A stretch of 63,466 nucleotides of DNA from Candidatus Terasakiella magnetica. Lineage in GTDB: Bacteria; Pseudomonadota; Alphaproteobacteria; Rhodospirillales; Terasakiellaceae. The stretch spans positions 1 to 63,466 of the forward strand of contig NZ_FLYE01000007.1 of assembly GCF_900093605.1 (NCBI RefSeq), read 5' to 3'. The notes under the pieces were generated by a model. It searched no databases and was not told where the DNA came from. It saw only the letters and a program-made list of their open reading frames with translations. Positions 9,831-63,466 of the stretch are shown here, piece after piece. Numbering within the stretch: the stretch's first letter is position 1; each line of letters begins with the position of its first letter. The translations under genes and the position numbers were made by a program.

Positions 9831-11027
9831 TTAGGTTTTCTTTCTGATGAAAATCAGATAGGTCACAAAGGTCATCAAACCCATCAAGGCAATGGCACTG
9901 ACCATGGGCAGATGCGTGCCATTATGAAGCAGACCAACACTGCCCCCGACAAGAGCAGCACAACTCATTTGTAAAAAACCCATCAAGGCCGAAGCTGAGC
10001 CCGCCATTTTTGGAAAAGGTCCAATAGCGCCTGCCATAGAATTAGGCATCACAATCCCCACACTCATCATAAAGATGACCATGGGGGACACGACACTCAC
10101 AGCGCTATCACCCCCGCCATAAGCGACCCCCACCAGCAAAGCCCCGCCAAATAGAGAAAGTAAGCTACCATAGCGCAACATTTTCGGTCCGCCCAGTTTG
10201 CGCGACAGCTTGCCCGCAATCAATGTTCCAGTGATATAGCCACAAACAACCACACCAAAACAGATACCATAGATATTGGGTTCCAAACCAAACACATCGA
10301 TAAAGACAAAGGAAGAGCCTGAAATAAAGGCAAACAACCCTGAAAAGACAAAGCTGTTTAGTAACACATACCCCAGAAAGCCACGATGTTTAAGCAGCTC
10401 AAGATAATTACCAATTATGCGCGCAGGCTTTAGGGCTTCTGGGTTTTGATGCTCGTTAGTTTCGCGAATTAACAAGGCCACAAGCACAACAAGGATGGCG
10501 GCAAAAATACTAATCACCACGAAACTTGCTTGCCAACCAAACCAGATTTGTAAATACCCACCAAACATAGGCGCAACAGCTGGCGCCAAGGCCATGGCAG
10601 AGCCCATATAGGCCAGCACTTGGGCTGCACGTTCTTGCCCATAAACATCACGCACAATTGCACGCCCTAAAACAGGCCCACTACAAGCCCCAAAGGCTTG
10701 AAAAAATCGTGAAATTATCAGAGCTTCGATTGTAGTTGACATAAAACAGGCAACACTTGCCACCCCATAAACCACAATACCGAATAAAAGAATAGGTCTT
10801 CTGCCAAATCGATCAGAAAGCGGACCATAAAAAAGCTGTGAAACGGCAAATCCAGCTAAAAAGATGCTAAGCGTTAACTGAACTTGCGAAACAGTCGCCC
10901 CAAAATCCACTTTCATTGCAGGTAGTGACGGGAGGTACATGTCCGTCGAGATCGGACCAAAAGCGACCAGTGCCGTTAAAATCACTGCAAAAAGGAAGGA
11001 GTCAGGGCGTAACATATAAAAAGCCAT
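9831..11027 (-). CDS. Bcr/CflA family drug-resistance MFS transporter
   Basis: A 398-residue, 12-helix major facilitator. The first helix holds GPISTDMYLPSLPAM, the hallmark of the Bcr/CflA drug:H+ antiporters, and the loop after helix 2 reads LSDRFGRRPILL. It faces the protease gene with only one base between the two stops. The start at 11027 has no strong ribosome-binding site; MLRPDSF three codons further is an alternative. A 16-bp near-perfect palindrome sits right before the start codon and may be a repressor site. The exported compound is not predictable. Confidence 0.9.
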   Translation of the reverse strand: MAFYMLRPDSFLFAVILTALVAFGPISTDMYLPSLPAMKVDFGATVSQVQLTLSIFLAGFAVSQLFYGPLSDRFGRRPILLFGIVVYGVASVACFMSTTIEALIISRFFQAFGACSGPVLGRAIVRDVYGQERAAQVLAYMGSAMALAPAVAPMFGGYLQIWFGWQASFVVISIFAAILVVLVALLIRETNEHQNPEALKPARIIGNYLELLKHRGFLGYVLLNSFVFSGLFAFISGSSFVFIDVFGLEPNIYGICFGVVVCGYITGTLIAGKLSRKLGGPKMLRYGSLLSLFGGALLVGVAYGGGDSAVSVVSPMVIFMMSVGIVMPNSMAGAIGPFPKMAGSASALMGFLQMSCAALVGGSVGLLHNGTHLPMVSAIALMGLMTFVTYLIFIRKKT

Positions 11028-11029
11028 TT

Positions 11030-11045
11030 AGTTTCATTTGAAACT
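11030..11045. promoter_or_regulatory. Palindrome overlapping the leader of the MFS gene
   Basis: AGTTTCA-TT-TGAAACT has two perfect 7-bp arms around a 2-base centre. It ends three bases before the start codon of the exporter on the minus strand. Size and position fit a TetR- or MarR-type operator, though no such regulator is next to it. Confidence 0.45.
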
Positions 11046-11080
11046 TACATAGCCTGATTTAGCCGCCCTGTAAAGCAAGC

Positions 11081-11446
11081 TTATTGATCCAGAATATCGT
11101 CCTTAAAAGTGGCAATCTTTTCAATCGCTGCCGTAATATCACTTTCTTCTGTGTGCATTTCACGAAGAATATCGATCACATGTTCAGCGACTTTATTAAA
11201 ATGGCTTTCATTCATGCCACGTGCCACTAGTGGGCGATGCACGGCGCGCAGATCAAGCTCATGATCCAATTTTGGGCCGCCAAAAATATCAGATAGAAAA
11301 TCCACCTGCTTTTGCTGTTGAGCCGCAAAATCCATATTTTTAAAGAAACGATTGAGATCTTCATCTAGCGCAATACGCTCATAAAGAAATTCAGCCAATG
11401 CTTCCATGGCAGGTTCACCACCCAGACGTATGTAAAGGGAGGCCAT
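11081..11446 (-). CDS. Group 1-like truncated haemoglobin
   Basis: A 121-residue protein with the truncated-globin plan. It starts with SLYIRLGGEPAMEALAEFLYERI, has the FFKNMD helix turn and DFLSDIFGGP, and the likely proximal haem histidine lies in LRAVHRPL (about residue 71). HFNKVAEHVIDILRE follows in helix G. These proteins bind O2, NO or peroxide and often detoxify NO. The ATG overlaps the stop of the upstream small gene by one base (TAATG on the minus strand), so translation of the pair is coupled. Confidence 0.85.
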   Translation of the reverse strand: MASLYIRLGGEPAMEALAEFLYERIALDEDLNRFFKNMDFAAQQQKQVDFLSDIFGGPKLDHELDLRAVHRPLVARGMNESHFNKVAEHVIDILREMHTEESDITAAIEKIATFKDDILDQ

Positions 11447-51402: not shown

Positions 51403-51429
51403 AAGGGTGCCCTGCATAAGGTCACCCTT
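51403..51429 (+). promoter_or_regulatory. Stem-loop between nrtCD and the c-di-GMP gene
   Basis: AAGGGTG and CACCCTT pair, with CCT/AGG extending the stem beyond one mismatch and the loop GCATA. No T-run follows, so it is a poor terminator. It could be a processing or attenuation hairpin that sets the downstream gene's level. It ends 20 bases before that gene's start. Confidence 0.5.
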
Positions 51430-51448
51430 ATCAAATGAAGGTGATGTG

Positions 51449-53590
51449 ATGAGCCCCCACTCGACTGTTTTTATTCAAGATGAGATACATACTCAGAATA
51501 TTTATTCATTTTCAAAGTTTAAGAAACTGCGCTTGGCTTTTTTCTTACGCCCTGATTTGAAAAAGCATTTACTGCCTTCACTTTCTTTAGAAAAAAAATG
51601 CGAAATTACCTTTGTTAAAACAACAAGTGATCTTCAAACATTATTAGAAACAAACAAGGTTGATGCTGTTGTCATTGATATGTCAGGCTGCATTTCTTGT
51701 GGGTTTGAATGTATAGAACATATCTGTAAAAAAGCAGGTGACAGCCCCGTTATTAGTATCGCAGACATTGATGACCCTGATTATGTAAATAAAGCCTTTA
51801 ATCGTGGCATTGAAGACCTTATCCCCAAAGAGGAAGTCACAAGCAAGCACTTGTTGCGTGTGATCAGTTATGCTGTTGTGCGCAGCCAAAACCTGGCAAA
51901 GGTAAAAGCCTTTGAAGCACGTCATAGCGGCATTGTTGAAAATGCGACGGAAGGCATTTTCCAGACCACACCGGATGGGCGCTATATTCTCGCCAATCCC
52001 GCACTGGCCAGATTATATGGCTATGAGACTGCAGATGAGCTTATTTCTGATCTCACCAATATTGAAACACAGCTTTATATTGATCCCAAACAGCGCGAAC
52101 GTTTTGCAAAAACAATGCGCGAAAAGGATGAAGTCCTCAATTTTGAAAGTCAGATCAGGCGTAAAAATGGTGAGGTCATCTGGATATCTGAAAATGCCCG
52201 TGCCGTGCGTAATGAAGACGGCAAAATCATCTATTTTGAAGGGTTTGTGCGCAATATCACCGCGCGGAAAGAAAATGAAAACCAGCTGACCTATCTTGCC
52301 CAACGCGACCCCTTAACAGGTTTACCCAACAGGGCACTTTATCAAGAGCGTTTAACCAAAAGTATCGAGCTTGCAAAGACGGACCAAAGCAAAGTCGGTG
52401 TCTTATTTATTGATCTGGATAACTTTAAAAAGATTAATGATACCATGGGCCATCCTGTGGGGGATTTGGTTTTGCAAAAAGTTGCAAGCCGCCTCATGTC
52501 ATGTACAAATACTCAAGATACGGTCGCGCGTCTCAGTGGGGATGAATTTACGGTTATTTTAAATGATGTGCGTAGCCCGCAAATTGCAGCCAAGGTCGCC
52601 TCGCGCATCCTTGATGCTTTATCAGAACCCATTACCATTGAAAATAAACAGGTTTACGCATCGGGCAGTATTGGCGTGTCCATTTACCCTGATCATGGCG
52701 ATACCATATCTGAATTGATGCAAAATGTAGATGCCGCTGCCTATCATGCCAAAAAGATGGGGCGCAATTCATATCAATTTTATACGGAAAACCTAAACGC
52801 CCAAGAAATTCGCCGCCTTGAAATAGAAAATGGATTAAGAAAAGCGGTTCATAAAAATGAACTGTCTTTGCATTACCAAGCCAAGGTGGACCTGCAAAGC
52901 GGCCAGATCATTGGTTCAGAAGCCTTATTGCGCTGGGAAAATGATATTTTAGGCAATGTCTCGCCTGATGAGTTCATCCCCATTGCTGAGGAAACAGGCT
53001 TGATCATTCCTATTGGAGAATGGGTCTTACAACAGGCCTGCCAACAATGTCGCAACTGGCTCGATGAAGGCCTAGATCCGGGCACAATTGCGGTTAACCT
53101 GTCAGCCCGCCAGTTTCACAAAAAAGGCCTGTTTGATGTTATAAAAAACATTCTTCAAACTACAGGCCTTCCCCCTGAGAGGTTAGAGTTAGAACTCACA
53201 GAAAGTGCCTTGGTGGAACATGTCAATGAAGCCATCAACTTCTTAAAAGAAGCTGAAACCATTGGCATCAAAACCAGTATTGATGATTTCGGAACGGGCT
53301 ATAGCTCCTTAAGCTATCTCAAAAAATTCCCCATCTCGACCTTAAAAATCGATAGGTCCTTCATTATGGATATTCCTGATGATACAGAAGATATGGCCAT
53401 CACACGCGCCATCATCAGCTTAGGCAAAAGCCTTGATTTAAAAATAGTCGCAGAAGGCATCGAAGATGAAGCCCAAATAAGCTTCTTAAAGAAACTGGGC
53501 TGTAACTTTGGCCAAGGCTATAAATTTAGCAAACCAATTGATGAAGATAGATTTGTCCAACTGCTAAAGGCAAAAGAAATATATTCATAG
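51449..53590 (+). CDS. Cytosolic receiver-like/PAS/GGDEF/EAL c-di-GMP protein
   Basis: A 713-residue soluble protein. The N-terminal ~130 residues look like a receiver domain (VDAVVIDMSGCISCGFECIE carries the likely acceptor Asp) but lack the usual acidic pair. PAS lies at about 150-280. In the GGDEF domain the motif is SGDEF and the I-site arginine is missing (NTQD). The EAL domain is intact: SEALLRW, NLSARQF, LELTES, DDFGTGYSSL, LKIDRSF, AEGIE. It is probably mainly a phosphodiesterase. ATG at 51449 is preceded by GAAGG; the ORF is open to 51407. It starts only 52 bases after nrtCD. Confidence 0.88.
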   Translation: MSPHSTVFIQDEIHTQNIYSFSKFKKLRLAFFLRPDLKKHLLPSLSLEKKCEITFVKTTSDLQTLLETNKVDAVVIDMSGCISCGFECIEHICKKAGDSPVISIADIDDPDYVNKAFNRGIEDLIPKEEVTSKHLLRVISYAVVRSQNLAKVKAFEARHSGIVENATEGIFQTTPDGRYILANPALARLYGYETADELISDLTNIETQLYIDPKQRERFAKTMREKDEVLNFESQIRRKNGEVIWISENARAVRNEDGKIIYFEGFVRNITARKENENQLTYLAQRDPLTGLPNRALYQERLTKSIELAKTDQSKVGVLFIDLDNFKKINDTMGHPVGDLVLQKVASRLMSCTNTQDTVARLSGDEFTVILNDVRSPQIAAKVASRILDALSEPITIENKQVYASGSIGVSIYPDHGDTISELMQNVDAAAYHAKKMGRNSYQFYTENLNAQEIRRLEIENGLRKAVHKNELSLHYQAKVDLQSGQIIGSEALLRWENDILGNVSPDEFIPIAEETGLIIPIGEWVLQQACQQCRNWLDEGLDPGTIAVNLSARQFHKKGLFDVIKNILQTTGLPPERLELELTESALVEHVNEAINFLKEAETIGIKTSIDDFGTGYSSLSYLKKFPISTLKIDRSFIMDIPDDTEDMAITRAIISLGKSLDLKIVAEGIEDEAQISFLKKLGCNFGQGYKFSKPIDEDRFVQLLKAKEIYS

Positions 53591-53743: not shown

Positions 53744-56700
53744 ATGAAGTTAACCACTAAGACTATTTATCTTCTGATTAATATAATGGTTTTGGTTGTC
53801 CTCTTCTCGGTCGGTTTAGTTTTTTTACTTTGGTATGATAAAGAATTCGAGCATGAACGAGCTCGTTTGATAGAGATTGTTCAGTCACGCTCTGAAATGA
53901 TTGGAGCTGTTGCAAAGTATGATCAAATTGAAGGGAAGAAGCTTGGCAAATCCAATGCACAATCCCAACAAGACACCTTAAAACAAATTCGAGAAGCCCA
54001 TTCACGCTTTAAAGGCTTTGGTCAAACGGGTGAATTCACATTAGGCAAAATTGTGAATGGGCAAATTGTCTTTTTACTTCGCCACCGTCATCAAGAAAAA
54101 GATCATAAACATCAAATGGTGTTTTCTACTTCTGAGGCACAGCCGATGCGCGCTGCCTTAAAGAAACAAAGCGGTATCATGGAAGGCTATGATTATCGGG
54201 GGCAAAAAGTCTTAGCGGCCTATGAATATATCGATGCTATGGACATGGGGATTGTTGCCAAGGTTGACTTGGAAGAATTGCATGAACCATTTAAAAAAGC
54301 CGCAATCCAAATCTCGCTTATGTCTTTTCTGACAATCCTTGCCGGTGCATTTTTCTTTCAAAAAACCAGCGCGCCCTTAATTCGTGTAATTGAGCGAAAT
54401 GAAGAACTTCTCACCAGAGTACTAGAAGCCAGTGACGATATCGTCCTTTCAACAGGGCTAAATAATTCCATCACCTACATTAACAATGCAGGGGCTCGTA
54501 TATTTAAGGAAAGCAAAGACAACATCATTGGTAAGCCTCTTGATGATTTTTTAAGTAAAAAGGCATTAATTCAATTTAATACGTCCCAAAGGATCTTGGA
54601 TGAAACAGGTAAGGGACATTCCTTTGTTTGTGCATTAGACCCCAATCTATCCACACGTCTCTTTCATACTCACCAGACAACAATTAAGGCTGAAAAAGGT
54701 TTTCTAACCGGGACTGTTTGTATAGCCCGAGATGTTACTGAGACATTGGAAACACAACGGCTCTTTACGGAGAACAAAGCCTTAACTGATACGATCGTAA
54801 ATAATGCAGCAGACGGCATCATTCTGTTAAATAACCAAGGCCACATTTGTATTTGGAACAAGGCCGCACAAAGAATATTTGGGTATGAGGAAAATGAAGT
54901 TTTAGGGAAAAACCCCCATTCCTTTCTGGCTTTCCCAGAAGATCAAATTGCAGGGAGCAACGCACTTGCCAATTTCCTTAAAACAGGCCAGTTAAATACT
55001 TTGCATGATGTTGTTGAATTAAAAGCACGATGCAAAAACGAAAACGTTATCGATATAGAACTCTCATTAGCCGGATTATCTCAAGATAATGGGTGGCATG
55101 CCTTGGGTATTTTTCGTGATGTGACACACAAAAAGCAACAGGAGCAGGCCTTACAGAGAGTCTATAACCAGCTCGCTGAGAGTGCTTCGAATTACAAGTA
55201 TCTTTTCGATAATGCTAAAATCTCAATTTGGGATGAAGATTTCACAGATGTATATGACGCGCTAGAAGCTTTAAAAGAGCAAGGTATCAGAGATATAAAA
55301 GTCTATCTCAATGCCAACCCAGAGGTCGCTCTTAACTTGGCGCAAAAGATCAAAATCAATGATATTAATGAAGAAACGCTCAGATTATATCGCGCACAAT
55401 CAAAAGAACATTTTTTCAATTCAATAACTGAAACATTCTCTGGTGATGCCCTTGATATCTTCATTGATGAAATTGATGCCATTTGGCACAAAAAATCTGG
55501 TTTTGTGACCAGTACGACCCAACGCACGCTCGATGGGAAAAGCATTTATGTAATGATCTATGTACCGATCCCTACCGAGCGCGAAGAATATAAAAACATA
55601 CCTGTATCAATTCTGGATATTACCGAAACAGTCCTCACCAAAGAACGCCTAAACGAACAGAATGAGGCCTTACAAGAGCTTCAAAACATCATAGACAGAA
55701 GTCCCGCGGTCGCTTTCCTATGGAGAAATGAAGAAAAATGGCCTGTGGAATATGTATCTCATAACATTTCAGAATGGGGCTACACCAAAGAACAATTTGA
55801 AAGTGGTCAATTACACTTCGTAGATATCGTAAACCCAGATGACCTTGAACGCGTTGGTAATGAAGTCAGCCAATATATTGAAAATGATTATTCTTCTTTC
55901 GTACAGGAATATCGAATTATAGCGGCAGATGGCAGTATTCATTGGATTGATGACCGGACATGGGTCAGAAAAGACCATGAAGGCAATATCACGCATTTTG
56001 AAGGTATCTGCCTTGAAATTACGGAAAGAAAAGAAGTCGAGCGTTTACTTTGGCAATCACAAAAATCTGAAGCATTGGGGAATATGGCTGCGGGTATCGC
56101 ACATGATTTTAATAATATGCTTCTGCCTGTTATTGCCCTAACAGACCTAACCGCAAACCAATGTAAAGATGATGATCCCATTAAGAGACGGATGTTAAAA
56201 ATCAAAGATGCAGGTGAAAAAGCCCAAGAACTTGTGAAAAGCCTGATGATCTTCGCACGTGAAGAAGAAGTCGAGTTTAATCCAATCCATGTCTGTGATT
56301 TTCTAAGCACCACAATAGAGCTTTTAGAACAAACAATGCCGTCTTCGATGCAAATTATACAAAAAGGCGGTTGCCCTAAAGAGTATCAAGATTGTTCTAT
56401 CTTAGGCAGTTTTGGTCAATTACAGTCCGTTTTAATTAATATTGCTAAAAATGCTGCTGATGCTCTTAACGGACGCACTGGCACATTTAATATTGAATGC
56501 AGTCAGTTGCTTAATGATAACAGTCATACTGATGTCGAGTTACCAGAACAAGGGGCTGTTTATTTCCATATTCGATTAAAAGACAATGGACCGGGCATGA
56601 CTGATGAAGTTTTGATGCGAATCTTTGACCCATTCTATACAACAAAAGCTGTTGGCGAAGGAACGGGAATGGGCCTTGCCATGGCCAGAAGTATTATAGA

Positions 56701-56785
56701 TAAGCATAAAGGATTAATACGAGCGCATAGTCGTAAAGGATATGGCACTACTTTTGATATATATATACCTTTAATCGTTTCATAA
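53744..56785 (+). CDS. Multi-PAS membrane sensor histidine kinase
   Basis: A 1013-residue kinase. Membrane helices at about 8-30 and 190-208 flank a periplasmic sensor (GQTGEFTLGKIVNGQIVFLL, later MDMGIVAKVDLEELHEPFKK) like single-Cache sensors. Four PAS domains follow (about 225-345, 350-470, 490-630, 650-770). The HisKA domain has His787 in GIAHDFNNMLLP, and the ATPase carries NIAKNAADAL, LKDNGPGM and GTGMGLAMA. There is no receiver domain; the stand-alone receiver 89 bases downstream is the likely partner. The promoter may use TATACT about 30 bases upstream. Confidence 0.9.
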   Translation: MKLTTKTIYLLINIMVLVVLFSVGLVFLLWYDKEFEHERARLIEIVQSRSEMIGAVAKYDQIEGKKLGKSNAQSQQDTLKQIREAHSRFKGFGQTGEFTLGKIVNGQIVFLLRHRHQEKDHKHQMVFSTSEAQPMRAALKKQSGIMEGYDYRGQKVLAAYEYIDAMDMGIVAKVDLEELHEPFKKAAIQISLMSFLTILAGAFFFQKTSAPLIRVIERNEELLTRVLEASDDIVLSTGLNNSITYINNAGARIFKESKDNIIGKPLDDFLSKKALIQFNTSQRILDETGKGHSFVCALDPNLSTRLFHTHQTTIKAEKGFLTGTVCIARDVTETLETQRLFTENKALTDTIVNNAADGIILLNNQGHICIWNKAAQRIFGYEENEVLGKNPHSFLAFPEDQIAGSNALANFLKTGQLNTLHDVVELKARCKNENVIDIELSLAGLSQDNGWHALGIFRDVTHKKQQEQALQRVYNQLAESASNYKYLFDNAKISIWDEDFTDVYDALEALKEQGIRDIKVYLNANPEVALNLAQKIKINDINEETLRLYRAQSKEHFFNSITETFSGDALDIFIDEIDAIWHKKSGFVTSTTQRTLDGKSIYVMIYVPIPTEREEYKNIPVSILDITETVLTKERLNEQNEALQELQNIIDRSPAVAFLWRNEEKWPVEYVSHNISEWGYTKEQFESGQLHFVDIVNPDDLERVGNEVSQYIENDYSSFVQEYRIIAADGSIHWIDDRTWVRKDHEGNITHFEGICLEITERKEVERLLWQSQKSEALGNMAAGIAHDFNNMLLPVIALTDLTANQCKDDDPIKRRMLKIKDAGEKAQELVKSLMIFAREEEVEFNPIHVCDFLSTTIELLEQTMPSSMQIIQKGGCPKEYQDCSILGSFGQLQSVLINIAKNAADALNGRTGTFNIECSQLLNDNSHTDVELPEQGAVYFHIRLKDNGPGMTDEVLMRIFDPFYTTKAVGEGTGMGLAMARSIIDKHKGLIRAHSRKGYGTTFDIYIPLIVS

Positions 56786-56874
56786 AATAAAAAAAGTATT
56801 TATTTTCACTTGGTTAAAGACTACTTTATACATATGTATAAGATGGTCATGCGTGTATAGATTAAGAGGTTTTT

Positions 56875-57240
56875 GTGGCTCATATTCTGGTTATTGATGA
56901 TGAAGAATTAGCACGTTTCACCATTCGTGAAATTGTTGAAGGCTATGGCCATACAATTATTGAAGCGGTAAACGGTAACCAAGGGCTTGAAAAATTTCGC
57001 CAAAATGATGTCGACTTGATTATTACTGATATAATTATGCCTGAAAAAGAAGGCATTGAGACCATTATCGAGCTTAAGCGCGAACAACCCGATTTGAAAG
57101 TCATCGCTATATCCGGTGGTGGTCGTACAAGGAATTTGGATTTTCTCAAACTCGCAGGGGAAATGGGGGCCGATACAATTCTGGCTAAACCATTTTCTTC
57201 TGATGAACTTATGAGTGCTGTAAACAAGTGCCTCAACTAA
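56875..57240 (+). CDS. Stand-alone receiver domain protein (CheY-like)
   Basis: A 121-residue single-domain response regulator with GTG start (AGAGG before it). The acidic pair lies in VIDDEELARF, the phosphoacceptor aspartate in LIITDIIMPEKEGI (about 52), the serine in IAISGGG and the lysine in LAKPFSSDEL. It has no output domain, so it must act by protein contact, perhaps on the GGDEF-EAL-like proteins encoded directly downstream (16 bases after its stop). Confidence 0.9.
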   Translation: MAHILVIDDEELARFTIREIVEGYGHTIIEAVNGNQGLEKFRQNDVDLIITDIIMPEKEGIETIIELKREQPDLKVIAISGGGRTRNLDFLKLAGEMGADTILAKPFSSDELMSAVNKCLN

Positions 57241-57256
57241 CATAAGAGGTGGCCTT

Positions 57257-58486
57257 ATGGAAAACGAGAGTAACGATAAAAATAGTTTTACAGACTTTTT
57301 TTCCGATCGGGCTGCAGCCAGCAAAGGTCGTGTTTTTATTCTGGATTTATCCCCTGTTCAGGACCAGCTCAAAGAAAGATGGGAGCGCCTGAAAGGACAA
57401 GTCTATGCCACGGCCAAAGATGTCATCGATCACAGGATACGGCCTGATGATGTTTACTGTCAGTGGGATGAAAAAAACTACCTCATTGCTTTTGGCGCTC
57501 TAGATGAAGCCCGTGCACGAATTAAAATAAACCTGATTGCTCAGGAAATTACCCAACGTCTGCTGGGCTCACCTGACCCTCAAAATGCCATTACTGTGAC
57601 AATGGCGACCGCTGATGAAAATGGGCATTTCTTCTGGCAAAAAGATACCGACCCTTCAAAGCTTGTTGAAGAAGAAGAAAACCCTCTTGCGCCCATAAAA
57701 CAGGAAGATACAAGAAACACGCAAGCCCTTGTTCATCAAGATGTGGAGTTTATTTTCCGCCCGCTTTGGTTTGTTAAAAACAAAATCATCTCTTCATATT
57801 TTTGTATCCCGGTAAGACCGCAAGGCTCGGGACGTTTTTTATCAAGCTATAATGTCTTAAGTGACCACTTAAACCCGGTCGCAGTTGAAGCCCTTGATCT
57901 GTTAACCATGAAGCGGATATTTGTTGAGGCTTCAAAATTAGATGAAATAAAAAACCCGGCCCTTTTAACCGTACCGATACATTTTGAATCTATTGCTTCA
58001 ACTGGGCGACGCTCCATTTTGTTAAAACAATGTCAGAAGAACCTGGCGCCACACCGCGGGCGGATTGTTGTTGAACTCACCCATTTACCAGACGGGATCC
58101 CCCAGTCGCGCTTACAGGACCTTATTCAAGCGCTTAAGCCATTTTCACGCGCTGTCATGGCACGGTTTGATTCGATGCATCGCGATTTCGCAGGCTATAA
58201 GCATGTGGGATTACATGCTGTTGGCGTTGACCTTTATGATGATCGGCGTTCTGAAGTTAAAATTATGAATGATATGGAACTATTTGCTGCATCAGCAGCC
58301 AAGCATGGGCTTCACACCTATGTGCATGGCGTGCGTTCTATCAGCCTGACAACAGCTGCGATCTGTTCTGGTATTGATTATGTGGATGGTTATGCCATCA
58401 CTGATGTGCAAGAAGGGGCAAGAGACGTTAAATATTATTCTATTCGGATGCCATATGCTGCCAAATATTCTGAGGCAAAGGAATAG
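57257..58486 (+). CDS. Putative degenerate GGDEF-EAL tandem protein A
   Basis: A 409-residue soluble protein that I do not recognise as a named family. The N-terminal part has RPDDVYCQWDEKNYLIAFGA (about 68-87), which sits like a GGDEF strand-loop-strand without the active motif. The C-terminal part (about 235-395) follows the strand order of an EAL domain: LLTVPIHFESI, GRIVVELTHLPDG for LELTE, HAVGVDLYDD, and LHTYVHGVRSISL with GIDYVDGYAI for the AEGVE and QGY region. The catalytic residues are absent. Only three bases separate it from its paralogue. I infer a binding or scaffold role under the upstream kinase/receiver. Confidence 0.6.
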   Translation: MENESNDKNSFTDFFSDRAAASKGRVFILDLSPVQDQLKERWERLKGQVYATAKDVIDHRIRPDDVYCQWDEKNYLIAFGALDEARARIKINLIAQEITQRLLGSPDPQNAITVTMATADENGHFFWQKDTDPSKLVEEEENPLAPIKQEDTRNTQALVHQDVEFIFRPLWFVKNKIISSYFCIPVRPQGSGRFLSSYNVLSDHLNPVAVEALDLLTMKRIFVEASKLDEIKNPALLTVPIHFESIASTGRRSILLKQCQKNLAPHRGRIVVELTHLPDGIPQSRLQDLIQALKPFSRAVMARFDSMHRDFAGYKHVGLHAVGVDLYDDRRSEVKIMNDMELFAASAAKHGLHTYVHGVRSISLTTAAICSGIDYVDGYAITDVQEGARDVKYYSIRMPYAAKYSEAKE

Positions 58487-58489
58487 CCC

Positions 58490-59737
58490 ATGAATGAGAA
58501 ACGAACCTATGGCAGTGCTGAAAACTCGGCGTTACAAAAAGATTATTGGAAATTACTACGTCTGATGATCTTGGATGCCATTGAAAAAAATCCCAATGGT
58601 GTAGCTCTTTTAAAATTTGATAAAATTCATCATTTCACAGAACATGTATGGAAAGAAGCTGCAAAAACACTGGCGTCTATCGTTACTGGTGAGGCCAAAA
58701 ACGTCATTCAGGGCGATGACCTTTTTGTCTCCTTTGATGAAACGTCCTATTTACTCATCGCAGAGGCTTCACAAGGCAGTACATCCTATGAACTTGCACA
58801 GAAGATTTCAAAAACCATTGGATTACACTTAAACGGAATTGGCTTGGGGAAAACATCCCTTTCGGTTCTGCGCGTTGTTGCTGTTGAAGATAACCAGATC
58901 GTTGTTGAAGACAGTTTGGAAGTAAGTCCCGCTAAAGAGCGCGTGATAGCACAGGCTACATCTTCAAATGAAGTGACTGAGCTGCTCAAGTCTGCTTCGT
59001 TCGATTTCCTTCCGCTTTGGCATGTGCGCAAGAGTTTCGTCATGTGCTTTGAATGTATCCCCAGATGGCATCAAAAAGACGGCTCAGTCCTAGATGAACA
59101 TTATTTATCGGCTCATTTCCAGAAACACGATATGGAATATGCCCTTGATGCCGAGACAGTTCATCATGCGGTGGATCAAGTCGTAAATATTATTGAGAAT
59201 GACCGCGTTGCCTCCATTTTAGTCCCTGTGCATTATGACACCGTGATGGAAGATGAAGGCTTTGAGAAATTTTTAAAGTCCTATGGTGAACTCATGCCCG
59301 CGTGGCGCGAACGTGTTTCCATGGAAATTAAAAACCTGCCTGATGATGTAACTTTTGAACAGGTGAAACGCGCCCTTCACAGGTTGCGGCCCTATTGTTA
59401 TGGCCTATATGTGCAAGTTCCGTTTGGGTTTGACCAAATAGGAGATTTTGAAATTGATGGGCTTGTCTCTCTTGGTGTCGATCTCACACATGACACCCGT
59501 GATGAGGACGTAATTTTGGCCGATATGGAAAATTTTGTCGCTTCTGTAAATCTGAACGACAGCCTTCACACGCATGCATTAGGTTTACAAACCGTGAGCT
59601 TAAGCGTTGGGGCAATCTGTACCGGTTTTGATTTCATAGGCTGCAAGCCAATCGATAAAGAACTCGACGGTTGGGGGCTGGATGATTTTCTCGTGCGCCC
59701 AATCGATTTATATAAACAACTCTTGAAGAATAAGTAA
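58490..59737 (+). CDS. Putative degenerate GGDEF-EAL tandem protein B
   Basis: A 415-residue soluble paralogue of the preceding protein. Matching blocks in order are GDDLFVSFDETSYLLIAEAS, FDFLPLWHVRKSFVMCFECI, ILVPVHYDTVM, RERVSMEIKNLPDDV, LRPYCYGLYVQVPF, GLVSLGVDLTHDTRDED and LHTHALGLQTVSLS with GFDFIGCKPI. As in protein A, the positions of GGDEF and of the EAL metal ligands are not conserved. The RBS AAAGGAA lies inside the end of gene A, so the two are coupled and may form a heterodimer. The family is not named from sequence alone. Confidence 0.6.
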   Translation: MNEKRTYGSAENSALQKDYWKLLRLMILDAIEKNPNGVALLKFDKIHHFTEHVWKEAAKTLASIVTGEAKNVIQGDDLFVSFDETSYLLIAEASQGSTSYELAQKISKTIGLHLNGIGLGKTSLSVLRVVAVEDNQIVVEDSLEVSPAKERVIAQATSSNEVTELLKSASFDFLPLWHVRKSFVMCFECIPRWHQKDGSVLDEHYLSAHFQKHDMEYALDAETVHHAVDQVVNIIENDRVASILVPVHYDTVMEDEGFEKFLKSYGELMPAWRERVSMEIKNLPDDVTFEQVKRALHRLRPYCYGLYVQVPFGFDQIGDFEIDGLVSLGVDLTHDTRDEDVILADMENFVASVNLNDSLHTHALGLQTVSLSVGAICTGFDFIGCKPIDKELDGWGLDDFLVRPIDLYKQLLKNK

Positions 59738-59768
59738 AAGACGACTGCATTTAGGGGGAAGATTCAAA

Positions 59769-60167
59769 ATGTCCATTTTTACATGGCAGGATGCCTATAG
59801 TGTCGATGAAGGCATGATCGATACACAACATAAGAAACTGCTCAAGATCGCAGAGACTTTATTCAATGCTGTGCTTGCCCAAAAAGAAGAAAAATATATT
59901 GAGAGCTGTTTTGATGATTTACTCAGCTACACCCAAAAACATTTTAATGATGAAGAAACATATTTTAAGAAAATCGGTTCAGAAAAATTGAGCCCACATG
60001 CTGAAGAACATAAGGTACTTGCCACAGAACTCCAGAACGTATGGCAAATGGAATTGCTTGGCTTTAATGATGAAAAGGGCCGCGAATTATTGACATGGGT
60101 GGAAGATCGTTTAATCCCACATATGATGATTGATGACTCAGAAGCCTTTCATTCAGCTAAAGACTAA
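59769..60167 (+). CDS. Bacteriohemerythrin
   Basis: A 132-residue di-iron O2-binding protein. The iron ligands fall in order: His in DTQHKKLL (about 22), His and Glu in HFNDEETYF (about 57-61), HAEEH (about 76-80), and HMMIDD (about 117-121). It is a single domain of normal size, with RBS GGGGGAAG. It lies 31 bases after protein B, in the same direction, so O2 or NO binding may feed into or be controlled by the upstream signalling genes. Confidence 0.9.
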   Translation: MSIFTWQDAYSVDEGMIDTQHKKLLKIAETLFNAVLAQKEEKYIESCFDDLLSYTQKHFNDEETYFKKIGSEKLSPHAEEHKVLATELQNVWQMELLGFNDEKGRELLTWVEDRLIPHMMIDDSEAFHSAKD

Positions 60168-60206: not shown

Positions 60207-60821
60207 TTAAGAAATAATTTCAGTTATTGTCTCTAGACCACCACGATAATCTTTGTAGTCAAGAGGTATCATATGTATTCCTCCTTGATGTTCAAGAACC
60301 ATGGATGGGAAACCATGTATAGGTAAGCTATGTGCAAACTGTAGTTCCTTAGCAAAGGTTTGCTCTAGTTGGTCTGAATTGATATCCACTTTAAATATCT
60401 CTGTATCAAGCCCTAATTCCTCTGCCAATTGAAGATGTACTTCTTGATCTGACGGGTTCATCGCCCTTAAATAATATCCCTTTTGTATGGCCAATATCAT
60501 TTTTTCTTCTGCCTCTTGCCACCGCGCGGCAATAACAGCTCTGCAAGCTGGGTAGGTTGATCTTCGCGGCGTATTTTGCGTCCAAAAGTCATAGTTAAAC
60601 TGAGTACCAAGTAATCCTTCAATCTTCTTCCAATAACCTGCGATCGCCTGTTGTTGCGCCAATGGCATGGGGTTATTACTGTCTGGTGCCAAACCACCAA
60701 CAATATATTTTACCTGAACGCTATCTGTTATGGCTTCTTTTAAAAGCTCCCATTGAGGACGGTGTCCCCAACACCAACTGCACATTGGGTCATGCACATA
60801 ATACAAAGTAGATGTTGTCAT
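60207..60821 (-). CDS. DsbA-family oxidoreductase (COG3531-like)
   Basis: A 204-residue protein starting MTTSTLYYVHDPMCSWCWGH. CSWC is the redox motif within a DSBA-like thioredoxin fold; SLPIHGFPSMVLE holds the cis-proline. No signal peptide is present, so it works in the cytosol, as do COG3531/FrnE-type proteins. I choose the ATG at 60821 (GGGAGA seven bases before) over the open start at 60842. It follows the SelO gene on the same strand after 53 bases; a thiol link between the two is attractive because SelO uses a redox-active C-terminal cysteine. Confidence 0.85.
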   Translation of the reverse strand: MTTSTLYYVHDPMCSWCWGHRPQWELLKEAITDSVQVKYIVGGLAPDSNNPMPLAQQQAIAGYWKKIEGLLGTQFNYDFWTQNTPRRSTYPACRAVIAARWQEAEEKMILAIQKGYYLRAMNPSDQEVHLQLAEELGLDTEIFKVDINSDQLEQTFAKELQFAHSLPIHGFPSMVLEHQGGIHMIPLDYKDYRGGLETITEIIS

Positions 60822-60874
60822 TACTTTCTCCCAGTAAGGCAAGATAATCTCATCAAAAACTTTTAACCGTCAAA

Positions 60875-62317
60875 TTACGTTCCACAAAAAGTCCTATATC
60901 CCTCGTCTCTATTGGCAGGAGGCTGAAAAAAGCCTAAATATTCTTCGCGTTCTTCAAAAGGTTTCTCTAACACCGCATTTAAACTATCAAATGGTTCAAA
61001 ATCCCCCTCTAGAGCAGAAGAAATCATGTTTTCAATTTGATGGTTCCTTGGGATATAGGCCGGGTTTTTAGCTTTCATAGCCGTTTGGCGTGCTTTGCTA
61101 CTTCTCTGTTGCGTTTGTAATCTAAAACGCCATTTCATAAGCCAGTCATGAAGAATTGGATCATCTTGTGCAGAACGAAGAGAACTAAGCTTGCTTAATT
61201 TACGGAAAGTGTGCGTGAAATCGAGCTGATGATGGGCCATGATATCAAGCAAGTCTTGGCCCAATTGTTCATCCCCTAATCGTACCTCTGACAGGCCAAT
61301 TTTTTCATTGAGTTCTATAGACCATGCCTTCCTATATTGATCTTGATATGTATTTAACACTGCCGTTGCACATTCTTTTGCTTTCTCTTCATTCGTGCTA
61401 ATCAATGACAAGATGCTAGAGGCAAAATATGTACAGTTACATTGTCCAATATATGGTTGATTCTCATATCTGTATCTCCCTATAACATCAATGGAACTAA
61501 ATACTGTTGTCGGATCATAATGATCCATAAATGCACATGGTCCGAAATCAAGAGTTTGACCAGAAATTAAAACATTATCCGTGTTCATAACACCATGGAT
61601 AAACCCAAGCCCCATCCATTTTGAAATCAGCGAAGCTTGAGTGGATACCACTTTCTCTAACAAACCAAGATAAGGGTTCGTTGTTTCTTTTAAATCGGGG
61701 TAGTGCCTATTAATCACATAATCAGCCAGAGTTTTTAAGGATGAATAATCCCCCTGAGAGGCAAAATACTGAAACGTTCCAACCCGAATATGACTTTTTG
61801 AAACTCGAGTTAGAATAGCGCCAGGAAGAGGTGTTTTGCGATAGACTTCTTCACCTGTCAGCACTACAGCAAGTGCGCGCGTGGTTGGAATATTCATGGC
61901 TGCCATGGCTTCACTAATTACATATTCGCGCAAAACAGGGCCAAGGGCTGCCCTGCCATCGCCCGTTCTAGAAAAACGTGTCCGACCAGAGCCCTTTAAT
62001 TGAATATCTTGACGCTCACCAAAAACATCAATGACCTCACCTAATAAAATTGCACGACCATCCCCTAACTGGGGTCTCCAGCCTGCAAACTGATGCCCTG
62101 CATAAACCATTGCGAGGGGCTCTGATCCTTGCAATATTCCATTTCCAGAAAAAATTTCCCCGGCTTTATTATGAGATAAATCTTCATGATCAAGCCCTAA
62201 TTGTAGGCTCAGTTTTTTATTCAGTTTTATCAAGGTTGGAGTGCTTACGGGTGTTGGTTCCACCCTCTCGAAAAAGGAATCAGAGAGTTGGGCATAACTA
62301 TTATCAAAATCCAGCAT
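60875..62317 (-). CDS. selO: Protein adenylyltransferase SelO (YdiU/UPF0061)
   Basis: A 480-residue pseudokinase that transfers AMP from ATP to Ser, Thr or Tyr of proteins. Conserved stretches are VYAGHQFAGWRPQLGDGRAI near 90, QLKGSGRTRFSRTGDGRAAL near 120, and HGVMNTDNVLISGQTLDFGP near 245, including the Asn/Asp metal ligands. It ends TFCGT, with Cys at the antepenultimate position that is selenocysteine in animal SELENOO. The gene is read with a plain TGT. In E. coli SelO acts in oxidative stress. The neighbouring DsbA-like gene suits that role. Confidence 0.9.
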   Translation of the reverse strand: MLDFDNSYAQLSDSFFERVEPTPVSTPTLIKLNKKLSLQLGLDHEDLSHNKAGEIFSGNGILQGSEPLAMVYAGHQFAGWRPQLGDGRAILLGEVIDVFGERQDIQLKGSGRTRFSRTGDGRAALGPVLREYVISEAMAAMNIPTTRALAVVLTGEEVYRKTPLPGAILTRVSKSHIRVGTFQYFASQGDYSSLKTLADYVINRHYPDLKETTNPYLGLLEKVVSTQASLISKWMGLGFIHGVMNTDNVLISGQTLDFGPCAFMDHYDPTTVFSSIDVIGRYRYENQPYIGQCNCTYFASSILSLISTNEEKAKECATAVLNTYQDQYRKAWSIELNEKIGLSEVRLGDEQLGQDLLDIMAHHQLDFTHTFRKLSKLSSLRSAQDDPILHDWLMKWRFRLQTQQRSSKARQTAMKAKNPAYIPRNHQIENMISSALEGDFEPFDSLNAVLEKPFEEREEYLGFFQPPANRDEGYRTFCGT

Positions 62318-62560
62318 AACATAATCACCAGTAAGCAGTTTTTTCTGAATCTAGAGCAAAAAATGACTGATCATCAAACTAGATTATCGAGAAATATGAC
62401 TATAGATTTTTTTATAAGTTAGAGCCATTCTAATTTAATATTTCTTGGAGAGGCTAACTTCTACATTACTTTTTTGATAATTTCTACTATGGGTCAAATC
62501 CAGTCGAACTGTCGTAACTTTTTTGTAGGAGTAAATAGGTTTACCACCGAGTGATCTCAA

Positions 62561-62776
62561 TTACGCATGAGATGAATCGGTTTGTTGTCTGATTGAAGCT
62601 GCGGATTCTTTAACAGAATCAGTTGATCTAGACTTATTAAGTGGCTTTAAAAGTTTTACCGCAGGAATGTCGCCATTATCCCAGCGTAACTGGGACCAAT
62701 ATTCTTCAAGCTTCAATGCAATCTTGGGAATGCGGCTTAAATATTGATTTTTGAAACATATTGCACAAAAGAACAA
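62561..62776 (-). pseudogene. Small ORF or gene remnant
   Basis: A 71-codon frame starting TTG, with a Trp-containing segment EEYWSQLRWDNGDIPAVKLL and a Ser-rich end. There is no SD, and the start lies within the tRNA-type terminator, so this is more likely an old gene fragment than an active gene. I do not recognise its family. Confidence 0.25.
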
Positions 62777-62805
62777 AGCCCCAAGGCGTTAACCTTGCGG
62801 CTTTG
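62774..62805 (-). terminator. Terminator downstream of a tRNA 3' end
   Basis: Arms CAAAGCC and GGCTTTG pair, then AAGG/CCTT pairs across a two-base mismatch. On the minus strand it is followed by TTCTTTTG. It lies just past the tRNA-Arg-like 3' fragment, as expected for the native terminator of that tRNA gene. Confidence 0.65.
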
Positions 62806-62809
62806 AAAA

Positions 62810-62825
62810 TGGCGCGCCCAGAAGG
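62810..62825 (-). other. tRNA-Arg 3'-end fragment, candidate att site
   Basis: On the minus strand the 16 bases read CCTTCTGGGCGCGCCA, i.e. the T-arm 3' side, the acceptor strand TGGGCGC, discriminator G and CCA of an alphaproteobacterial tRNA-Arg. The rest of the tRNA is missing upstream (no TTCGAAT loop). This is what remains at the far end when an element integrates into a tRNA 3' end. Confidence 0.6.
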
Positions 62826-62966
62826 TTTTGTAGGTCATAGGTTCCTAATTATAAAAGGCATCACTTGCCCAGATCGTTTGTCTAAGCAAATGTCTGGTTG
62901 CCATTATGGTCTACCTCTGGCGCACAACAAAGACCAATAAAATGGATAAGCACTTTTTGGATGCTT

Positions 62967-63466
62967 TTACATTTTCAAAGCATTGTAATACGACGACTTA
63001 CTGATATTCAGATGTTTCAAGGTAGCCGCTACAGTAACCGTAGGGTCTTTGTGGGCGTGTTGGATGTGTTTGACCAAGTCAGGCGTTAGCTTCGCTGGGC
63101 GACCGAATATGGCCCCATTGTCACGGGCGACCTGCTGCCCATGACGTGTTCTGGAAATTAAGAGTTCCCTTTCCATACTGGCTATGGCTGACATGATAGT
63201 GAATATGCAGCGCCCACCAATTGACTTTGTATCAACATGGTCATGAATGGATATGAGGTTCGCACCCTTGGCATCAATTAGTTCGCTAATTTCCAACATG
63301 TGTCGTGTTGATCTTGCAAGGCGATCCAAGCGATATACACAAAGCGTGTCTCCCTCACGAAGCAGTTCAAGAACTTTGTTGAGTTCTGGGCGTTCACGCT
63401 TAACACCTGACTCTTTCTCTTTATAGATGTCGCGTTCATCAACACCATATTTCAATAAGGCATCAA
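62967..63466 (-). CDS. Serine recombinase (resolvase/invertase), 5' end cut by window
   Basis: A partial gene of about 166 codons; the frame runs off the window. DALLKYGVDERDIYKEKESG and GDTLCVYRLDRLARS match the middle of the resolvase/invertase catalytic domain. The arginines of LDRLARS and the helix E region SMERELLISRTRHG are intact. The nucleophile serine must lie beyond the edge. A helix-turn-helix ends the protein (TVTVAATLKHLNISKSSYYN). The Pin/Tn3-resolvase type is favoured. It is the first gene inside the supposed inserted element. Confidence 0.85.
   Translation of the reverse strand, partial: DALLKYGVDERDIYKEKESGVKRERPELNKVLELLREGDTLCVYRLDRLARSTRHMLEISELIDAKGANLISIHDHVDTKSIGGRCIFTIMSAIASMERELLISRTRHGQQVARDNGAIFGRPAKLTPDLVKHIQHAHKDPTVTVAATLKHLNISKSSYYNALKM

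Follow-up and report, generated by a model that had tools for sequence, protein, structure and literature searches.

A lone receiver and two degenerate GGDEF-EAL proteins in a five-gene cassette of Candidatus Terasakiella magnetica

A conserved block of five genes

A stretch of 63,466 nucleotides from the alphaproteobacterium Candidatus Terasakiella magnetica (assembly GCF_900093605.1, contig NZ_FLYE01000007.1, positions 1 to 63,466), here termed the window, harbours a cassette of five genes on the forward strand between positions 53744 and 60167. These encode a sensor kinase, a lone receiver, two related proteins termed A and B, and a hemerythrin, and are separated by intergenic gaps of 89, 16, 3 and 31 bases, the gene calls agreeing with an earlier note on this locus, made from the sequence alone, that had described five co-directional genes with this spacing. 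The components are as follows.

53744..56785, + strand: membrane sensor histidine kinase of 1013 amino acids (Pfam), with orthologues 63% identical in the congener G005 and 48% identical in the congener G003
56875..57240, + strand: lone receiver of 121 amino acids with a GTG start (Pfam Response_reg, 85.6 bits)
57257..58486, + strand: protein A, 409 amino acids, predicted tandem GGDEF-EAL fold without the catalytic residues (AlphaFold model, Foldseek and alignment)
58490..59737, + strand: protein B, 415 amino acids, a paralogue of A in a clade of its own, predicted tandem GGDEF-EAL fold without most of the catalytic residues
59769..60167, + strand: single-domain hemerythrin of 132 amino acids with all seven expected iron ligands (Pfam 33.1 bits, TIGR02481 85.5 bits)

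The exact order kinase-receiver-A-B-hemerythrin is found in three of the six genomes of the genus (that of the window, G003 and G005), with the proteins of the two congeners being 48-78% identical to those of the window. The flanks of the cassette in G003 and G005 differ from those in the window; the sole flanking match, in a comparison using frames from a crude caller that had missed the window's receiver, is an ABC-transporter ATPase (40% identity), found on the other side in G003. This combination of the same order with different flanks means that the block behaves as one unit, ending at the kinase and hemerythrin genes. Only weak matches to A were found in the remaining congeners, G001, G002 and G004 (6e-4, 1.5e-8 and 2.2e-5, respectively). 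The earlier note had made its proposal depend on the gene order recurring elsewhere, which it does both in the two congeners and, for the kinase, receiver and A together, in several other families.

Protein A itself was matched in 27 genomes in a search of 60 relatives, and a profile of the family, at a threshold of E 1e-15, found matches within the order in 117 of 259 genomes and within the class in 59 of 289, both sets including the window's own genome. The number of candidates scored per genome was at most seven for the family profile in the order, six for the same profile in the class and 16 for the hemerythrin in the order. All five genes are under constraint when the window is compared with G005, non-synonymous differences (pN) being far below synonymous differences (pS) in each; the pN and pS values are 0.15 and 0.76 for A, and 0.26 and 0.79 for B. 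Together with their open frames, this rules out pseudogene decay of A and B.

The kinase matches HATPase_c (69.8 bits) and several PAS models, and includes a phosphoacceptor region with His787. Pfam identifies no receiver domain in the kinase and no output domain in the receiver, as previously described. Of four PAS domains originally proposed for the kinase, three lie in stretches above the Pfam cut-off (near residues 227-334, 349-461 and 670-755), whereas the possible fourth, at approximately 470-630, corresponds only to a PAS_9 match of E 0.056, below the cut-off. Overlooked at that stage was an N-terminal extracytoplasmic module, consisting of about 155 residues between two hydrophobic segments (approximately 7-29 and 185-206, as read by eye), which has a sub-threshold match to Cache (E 0.025); no Cache match was found in the two congener kinases. 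The sensor region differs between genomes, with the G029 copy having a MASE1 domain, so the input of the kinase is not fixed.

Fold and active sites of proteins A and B

Proteins A and B are 26% identical over 361 aligned columns (E 1e-31), and hence paralogous, as had been claimed. Both score under the gathering cut-off of 31.3 bits for the EAL family PF00563 (A, 13.3 bits; B, 18.9 bits), neither is among the genome's 40 matches to the GGDEF family PF00990, and no further domain was found in either with Pfam. NCBIfam returned no match for A and, for B, a match to the biofilm regulator HmsP that was far below the cut-off (17.6 bits).

AlphaFold2 models, built from 11-row alignments, had mean predicted local distance difference test (pLDDT) values of 79.3 for A and 75.2 for B, and predicted template modelling (pTM) scores of 0.58 and 0.56. 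The top Foldseek match in the PDB for both was the GGDEF-EAL chain 3pjw of LapD (E 2.3e-13 for A, 7.0e-13 for B), followed by DosP, MorA, PA0575, PA0861, FimX and other tandem or EAL chains. Template modelling (TM) scores to tandem chains were low by query length, at 0.38-0.46, which we attribute to the two domains sitting differently with respect to one another; the EAL part alone reached a TM-score of about 0.6-0.7 by target length. The EAL barrel is recognisable in the match of A to the FimX EAL domain 4ag0_A (0.71 by target) and that of B to 4q6j_A (0.68), and the GGDEF fold in the whole-length matches to tandem chains and in the profile match of the N-terminal part to 3ezu (E 3e-4). The latter came from a PDB profile search with the family, which retrieved GGDEF chains for the N-terminal part and FimX (E 0.044), its E values ranging from 3e-4 to 0.05. 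Similarly, a profile-profile comparison of 20 family members with five genuine GGDEF-EAL proteins from the same genome gave a probability of 95.4% (E 1.7e-8) over 373 columns, almost end to end. Both proteins are therefore modelled as tandem GGDEF-EAL folds, bearing out the pattern of GGDEF then EAL strands that had been discerned in their translations.

The catalytic set of EAL domains consists of Glu, Asn, Glu, Asp, Asp, Lys, Glu and Gln, and these eight positions were located on genuine EAL domains. Protein A keeps only one of the eight, E273: the EAL glutamate is replaced by F182, the asparagine by I241 or H242, the pair of aspartates by a gap and R303, the lysine by G323, the glutamate of AEG by H357 and the glutamine by D377. 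The place of the GGDEF motif reads DEKNY. As judged from these alignments, A has lost both the GGDEF and the EAL active sites. The earlier statement that neither protein keeps either site thus holds for A and has to be qualified for B, which in the window's genus has a Glu at the EAL glutamate position, followed four residues later by an Arg.

A lone receiver and a kinase accompany protein A

The receiver matches PF00072 with 85.6 bits, against a cut-off of 30.2, and the residues that matter for phosphorylation of such domains are present (D8, D9, D52, S80 and K105). Directly after the switch serine position is the string SGGGR; in receivers, the loop and helix that follow the switch residue serve target binding. 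There are 42 receivers at A-family loci with at least 40% identity to the window receiver, that of the window included, the other 41 spanning 41-75%, and the SGGGR string is present in 34 of the 42. With a looser definition of the string, 31 of the 62 receiver domains lying up to 1 kb from an A-family frame carry it, compared with nine of the 60 located farther off at the same loci.

Across ten genomes searched, the best match to the receiver was the copy beside A in all seven that bear the core of the cassette, with identities of 58-75% in the six besides the window's own; the match in G002 was 41% identical, and G001 and G004 had none at E 1e-22. Nine places with receiver matches away from A were also retrieved, of which three had the SGGGR string and three a kinase in the region. 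At one locus where the receiver had been matched away from A, L184, an A-family match (E 1.7e-22) lies 2.4 kb off.

The surroundings of the family were surveyed using 114 A-family frames at 100 loci, which were picked from the best matches of the searches of relatives, the order and the class, rather than at random. Only rows with E no higher than 1e-20 and a span of at least 230 residues were kept; no A match was obtained at L057, and L001-L038 and L059-L081 were left out as repeated places or the searches' short loci. Domains were identified with small home-made profiles, that for hemerythrin comprising just eight sequences, so misses are likely, above all for hemerythrin. Counts by clade rest on a quick tree with many weak forks, in which support is 95 for the A clade, 99 for the B clade and 87 for a 36-row node around A.

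The core of the cassette is older than the complete arrangement: within the A clade, a lone receiver lies no more than 250 bp away in 12 of 16 rows and a kinase no more than 5 kb away in 15, with one or the other present in all 16. At the receiver densities of five genomes (68-150 per genome), the number of receivers expected within 250 bp of a gene by chance, computed for receivers and not for kinases, is 0.02-0.05, which rules out a chance neighbourhood of the receiver and A. At the same distances, the 36-row clade includes 20 rows with a lone receiver and 31 with a kinase, and all ten rows of the B clade have a kinase within 5 kb. Tandems of A and B occur at seven loci, from four families of bacteria. 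Furthermore, a receiver is fused in front of A-type domains, in the same frame, in five proteins from four loci (L055, L099, L142 and, twice, L141).

The receiver type is also found in a different arrangement. In G163:C61, a 556-residue protein (L190:3546-5216, - strand) consists of an SGGGR receiver, 49% identical to that of the cassette, an adenylate/guanylate cyclase domain (78 bits) and, at its C-terminus, a hemerythrin domain (45 bits), the last being only 30% identical to the cassette hemerythrin over 76 columns. Receivers of the SGGGR type consequently have other outputs, and meet a hemerythrin on at least one of them.

An alternative identity for the receiver, as a c-di-GMP-binding protein of the Cle type (c-di-GMP, cyclic di-GMP), is ruled out: it stops at residue 121, without the arginine-rich C-terminal extension ascribed to Cle proteins in PMC5677366.

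The hemerythrin of the cassette

The hemerythrin scores 33.1 bits against PF01814 (cut-off 25.3) and 85.5 bits against TIGR02481 (cut-off 51.75), and falls under the 84-bit cut-off of NF033749 (Bacteriohemerythrin) at 78.4 bits. The iron ligands listed in a 2022 review, namely five His, one Glu and one Asp (PMC9388753), are represented in the window copy by H21, H58, E62, H77, H81, H118 and D123.

A hemerythrin is found near A in the window's genus and in three genomes of three other families, G029, G165 and G028; in G165, the kinase, receiver, A and hemerythrin follow one another on one strand, without B. Eight cassette or A-linked copies were compared with 14 sequences from 17 regions of the window's own genome, one of the 14 being identical to one of the eight; the six copies near A in the genus and in G029, G165 and G028 are mutual best matches with respect to the 14 other sequences. 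When the 259 genomes of the order were searched, the five best among the matches listed were the window copy (291 bits) and those of G005 (187), G003 (171), G165 (116) and G029 (114), all of them near A. The sixth, at 88 bits, was in G084, on a different contig from that genome's A matches. As the five best listed matches all lie near A, a chance neighbourhood is ruled out for this lineage, and these sequence relationships indicate that the cassette hemerythrin belongs to a lineage that tracks A. In the search of 192 genomes of the class, only the window's own hemerythrin reached 1e-18.

Several other associations between hemerythrins and c-di-GMP-type proteins were encountered, as was another tandem pair with weak EAL scores. 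A second, distinct hemerythrin is paired with an A-like degenerate GGDEF-EAL protein, the two frames abutting, at L056:8984-10714 (G000:C44, in the window's own genome) and L058:9014-10804 (G005); the L056 pair stands after ketoacyl-synthase and YceG genes, and with the home-made profiles neither a kinase nor a receiver was found up to 5 kb from the L056 and L058 pairs. At L191:765-2936 (+ strand, G000:C12), a single frame encodes a 723-residue protein with PAS, EAL (186 bits) and C-terminal hemerythrin (44 bits) domains, an architecture of which, according to the 2022 review (PMC9388753), no example had been found as a hemerythrin-EAL phosphodiesterase. At L192:323-964 (- strand, G000:C1), the gene for a 213-residue hemerythrin protein lies 33 bases from a PAS-GGDEF-EAL gene (998-2716, - strand), the product of which has a weak GGDEF (28.5 bits) and a strong EAL domain. 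The further tandem pair, of 417 and 432 residues at L057:8735-9988 and 9993-11291 (G000:C12), has sub-threshold EAL matches (29.2 and 27.3 bits) and is unmatched by the A profile.

A proposed contact-based signalling branch

The account that we favour, as somewhat more probable than not, is that the five genes constitute a two-component branch, in which the receiver acts by contact through dead GGDEF-EAL proteins and the hemerythrin is an oxygen or redox accessory. The computed observations on which it draws are the gene order, the fold, the loss of A's active sites, the association of A with a lone receiver and a kinase, the fusions of receivers to A-type domains, and the parallel descent of the cassette receiver and hemerythrin with A.

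In this branch, the membrane sensor kinase would phosphorylate the dedicated SGGGR lone receiver, as suggested by the usual reading of such neighbours and by the receiver having the needed residues. The phosphorylated receiver would then dock on A, and probably on B as its putative pair, changing the binding of these proteins to their partners; the short distance between the genes, their co-descent and the fusions all point to this step. The output is likely to be protein contact by pseudoenzymes, as opposed to synthesis or hydrolysis of c-di-GMP, based on the loss of both active sites and on the precedents of CsrD and HnoD. The likeliest partners of A and B would be true c-di-GMP enzymes, or another target that binds EAL domains. 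The hemerythrin may function as an accessory oxygen or redox element beside the pseudoenzymes, or as a local oxygen buffer.

A number of observations weigh against this account. The exact five-gene order is seen in only one genus, and the receiver link is not family-wide: of the 68 rows that belong neither to the 36-row clade nor to the B clade, seven have a lone receiver no farther off than 2.5 kb, five a fused receiver, and 27 a kinase within 5 kb. SGGGR receivers are found without A at L183 and L190, so A is not their sole partner, and one of them, that of G163, has a cyclase as its output. The fused receivers of L055, L099, L141 and L142 lack the SGGGR string, such that they support the A-type module as a receiver output, but not the cassette receiver in particular. 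The hemerythrin is near six of the 36 rows of the wider A clade; in G029, A is on the strand opposite to the kinase, receiver and hemerythrin, and in G028 the hemerythrin near A ranks only twelfth among the matches listed (75 bits), with no lone receiver within 2.5 kb of A.

Alternative explanations

A different division of labour, which we regard as doubtful, would have A as the allosteric inhibitor of a true EAL phosphodiesterase, with the inhibition being relieved once the receiver is phosphorylated. This would resemble the Hno system of Shewanella oneidensis, comprising the kinase HnoK and the regulators HnoB and HnoD (PMC6335343, PMC8846402), in which the degenerate HD-GYP protein HnoD is described as suppressing the EAL enzyme HnoB by direct contact (PMC6335343). 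A protein with receiver and EAL domains (REC-EAL) lies within 4 kb of A at nine of the 100 loci; all nine have the full set of eight catalytic residues and a kinase near, and eight also have a receiver, either a lone one up to 2.5 kb away or one fused to A. However, such a neighbour is absent from all 16 A-clade rows, and the EAL gene nearest in the window (51407-53590) does not adjoin the cassette of either congener. Control of a phosphodiesterase is hence a fair guess at these nine loci, and less so for the cassette of the window.

A second proposal, which appears unlikely, concerns the hemerythrin, which might be an oxygen store or scavenger only, its position having no meaning for signalling and the functional unit being the kinase, receiver, A and B. 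Hemerythrins are common, with 25 matches in the window's genome and 9-30 in the 13 genomes searched, and most A loci have none that is detectable by the small profile. Yet this hemerythrin lineage tracks A: the five best matches listed from the 259 genomes, all at 114 bits or more against 88 for the next, lie near A. The scarcity of hemerythrins at A loci also counts against the signal flow envisaged in the earlier note, whereby oxygen or NO would be relayed through the kinase and receiver. No result ties the hemerythrin to the input of the kinase, the sensor part of which varies, and this flow is unproven, leaving the interpretation given in that note partly supported overall.

It has also to be considered whether A and B serve as receptors for c-di-GMP, without catalytic activity but still able to bind the ligand in the manner of FimX and LapD, with the receiver setting their affinity. 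The closest solved fold is that of LapD, FimX is among the best matches, and B of this genus keeps the Glu at the EAL glutamate position and the Arg four residues on. This Glu is nonetheless present in only three of ten B-clade rows, all from the window's genus, and in eight of 114 family rows (being lost in 106), while A no longer has the aspartate pair or the catalytic Lys, Glu and Gln, making such a role improbable.

Equally improbable, in our view, is that in A and B the pocket of the barrel has been changed rather than inactivated, having taken on a new ligand or reaction. Polar residues unlike the EAL metal site are kept, with H242 and E273 present in every one of the 26 A-clade and B-clade rows and D325 in 24, and, of the other 88 family rows, 63 have H242 and 58 have E273. 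These three residues could line a changed pocket, or could be structural, and E273 is inherited from EAL domains; moreover, the lining of the pocket is deduced from the EAL alignment, in which H242 is one residue off the EAL asparagine. An extension of this idea, that A and B represent a separate class of two-component output in which an H242-E273-D325 pocket holds another ligand, gated by the dedicated receiver and with the hemerythrin feeding in oxygen or redox state, is the least credible of those considered.

Flanking genes and further searches

On the + strand at 51407-53590, 153 bases upstream of the kinase gene, the window has a gene for a protein with receiver-like, PAS, GGDEF and EAL domains, including all eight EAL catalytic residues. 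Its inclusion as a sixth member of the cassette is unsupported, as it does not adjoin the cassette in G005 or G003. After the cassette, on the opposite strand (60207-63455, -), are genes for a DsbA-like thioredoxin protein, SelO and a serine resolvase. A scan for promoters and terminators found site numbers no higher than in shuffled sequence, and there were no PHROGs matches. A search for plasmid relatives gave three weak matches to A, at 21-26% identity, and none to B.

Relation to known systems and significance

The fold, dead GGDEF-EAL regulators and the logic of kinase and receiver are already known. FimX and LapD are both degenerate tandem GGDEF-EAL proteins to which the folds of A and B are close, LapD being the closest; unlike A, which is without most residues of the site, they bind c-di-GMP, as seen in bound structures in the PDB. 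We know of no receiver partner for CsrD, a further degenerate protein of this type. In PMC5876332, CsrD of E. coli is described as having degenerate GGDEF and EAL domains, no observed response to c-di-GMP and EIIA-Glc as its partner; action through a protein partner is likewise proposed here for A and B, although CsrD, by contrast, is described as membrane-bound.

The resemblance to HnoK, HnoB and HnoD lies in a kinase driving response regulators, one of which is a dead c-di-GMP-type protein acting by contact, and in the presence of a REC-EAL protein at nine A loci. In place of the degenerate HD-GYP protein HnoD, however, the cassette has a tandem GGDEF-EAL pair, with the matches of A and B, both in Pfam and among the Foldseek rows shown, being to GGDEF-EAL as opposed to HD-GYP; the cassette-type receiver is mostly a separate gene, and the cassette has no H-NOX gene. 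A hemerythrin fused to an active c-di-GMP enzyme, which is known, likewise links hemerythrins with c-di-GMP signalling, whereas that of the cassette is a separate gene beside dead enzymes.

Among the matches listed from the open-access literature searched, no paper dealt with the cassette or with any receiver coupled to a pair of dead GGDEF-EAL proteins, which does not prove absence. The apparent novelty lies in how the parts are combined, and in a protein family that scores under the thresholds of the libraries searched. Because A and B are below the Pfam EAL and GGDEF cut-offs, counts built on those families would overlook them, and one census drew its proteins from those Pfam lists (PMC9756655).

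The family recurs across the order and class, although the link to a receiver is found in only part of it. To our knowledge, many lone receivers have no known target; here, one receiver lineage acquires a likely target from gene order, supported by fusions of receivers to the same target family. The cassette thereby provides a clear place to ask whether dead c-di-GMP enzymes may be plain protein-contact outputs of two-component systems.

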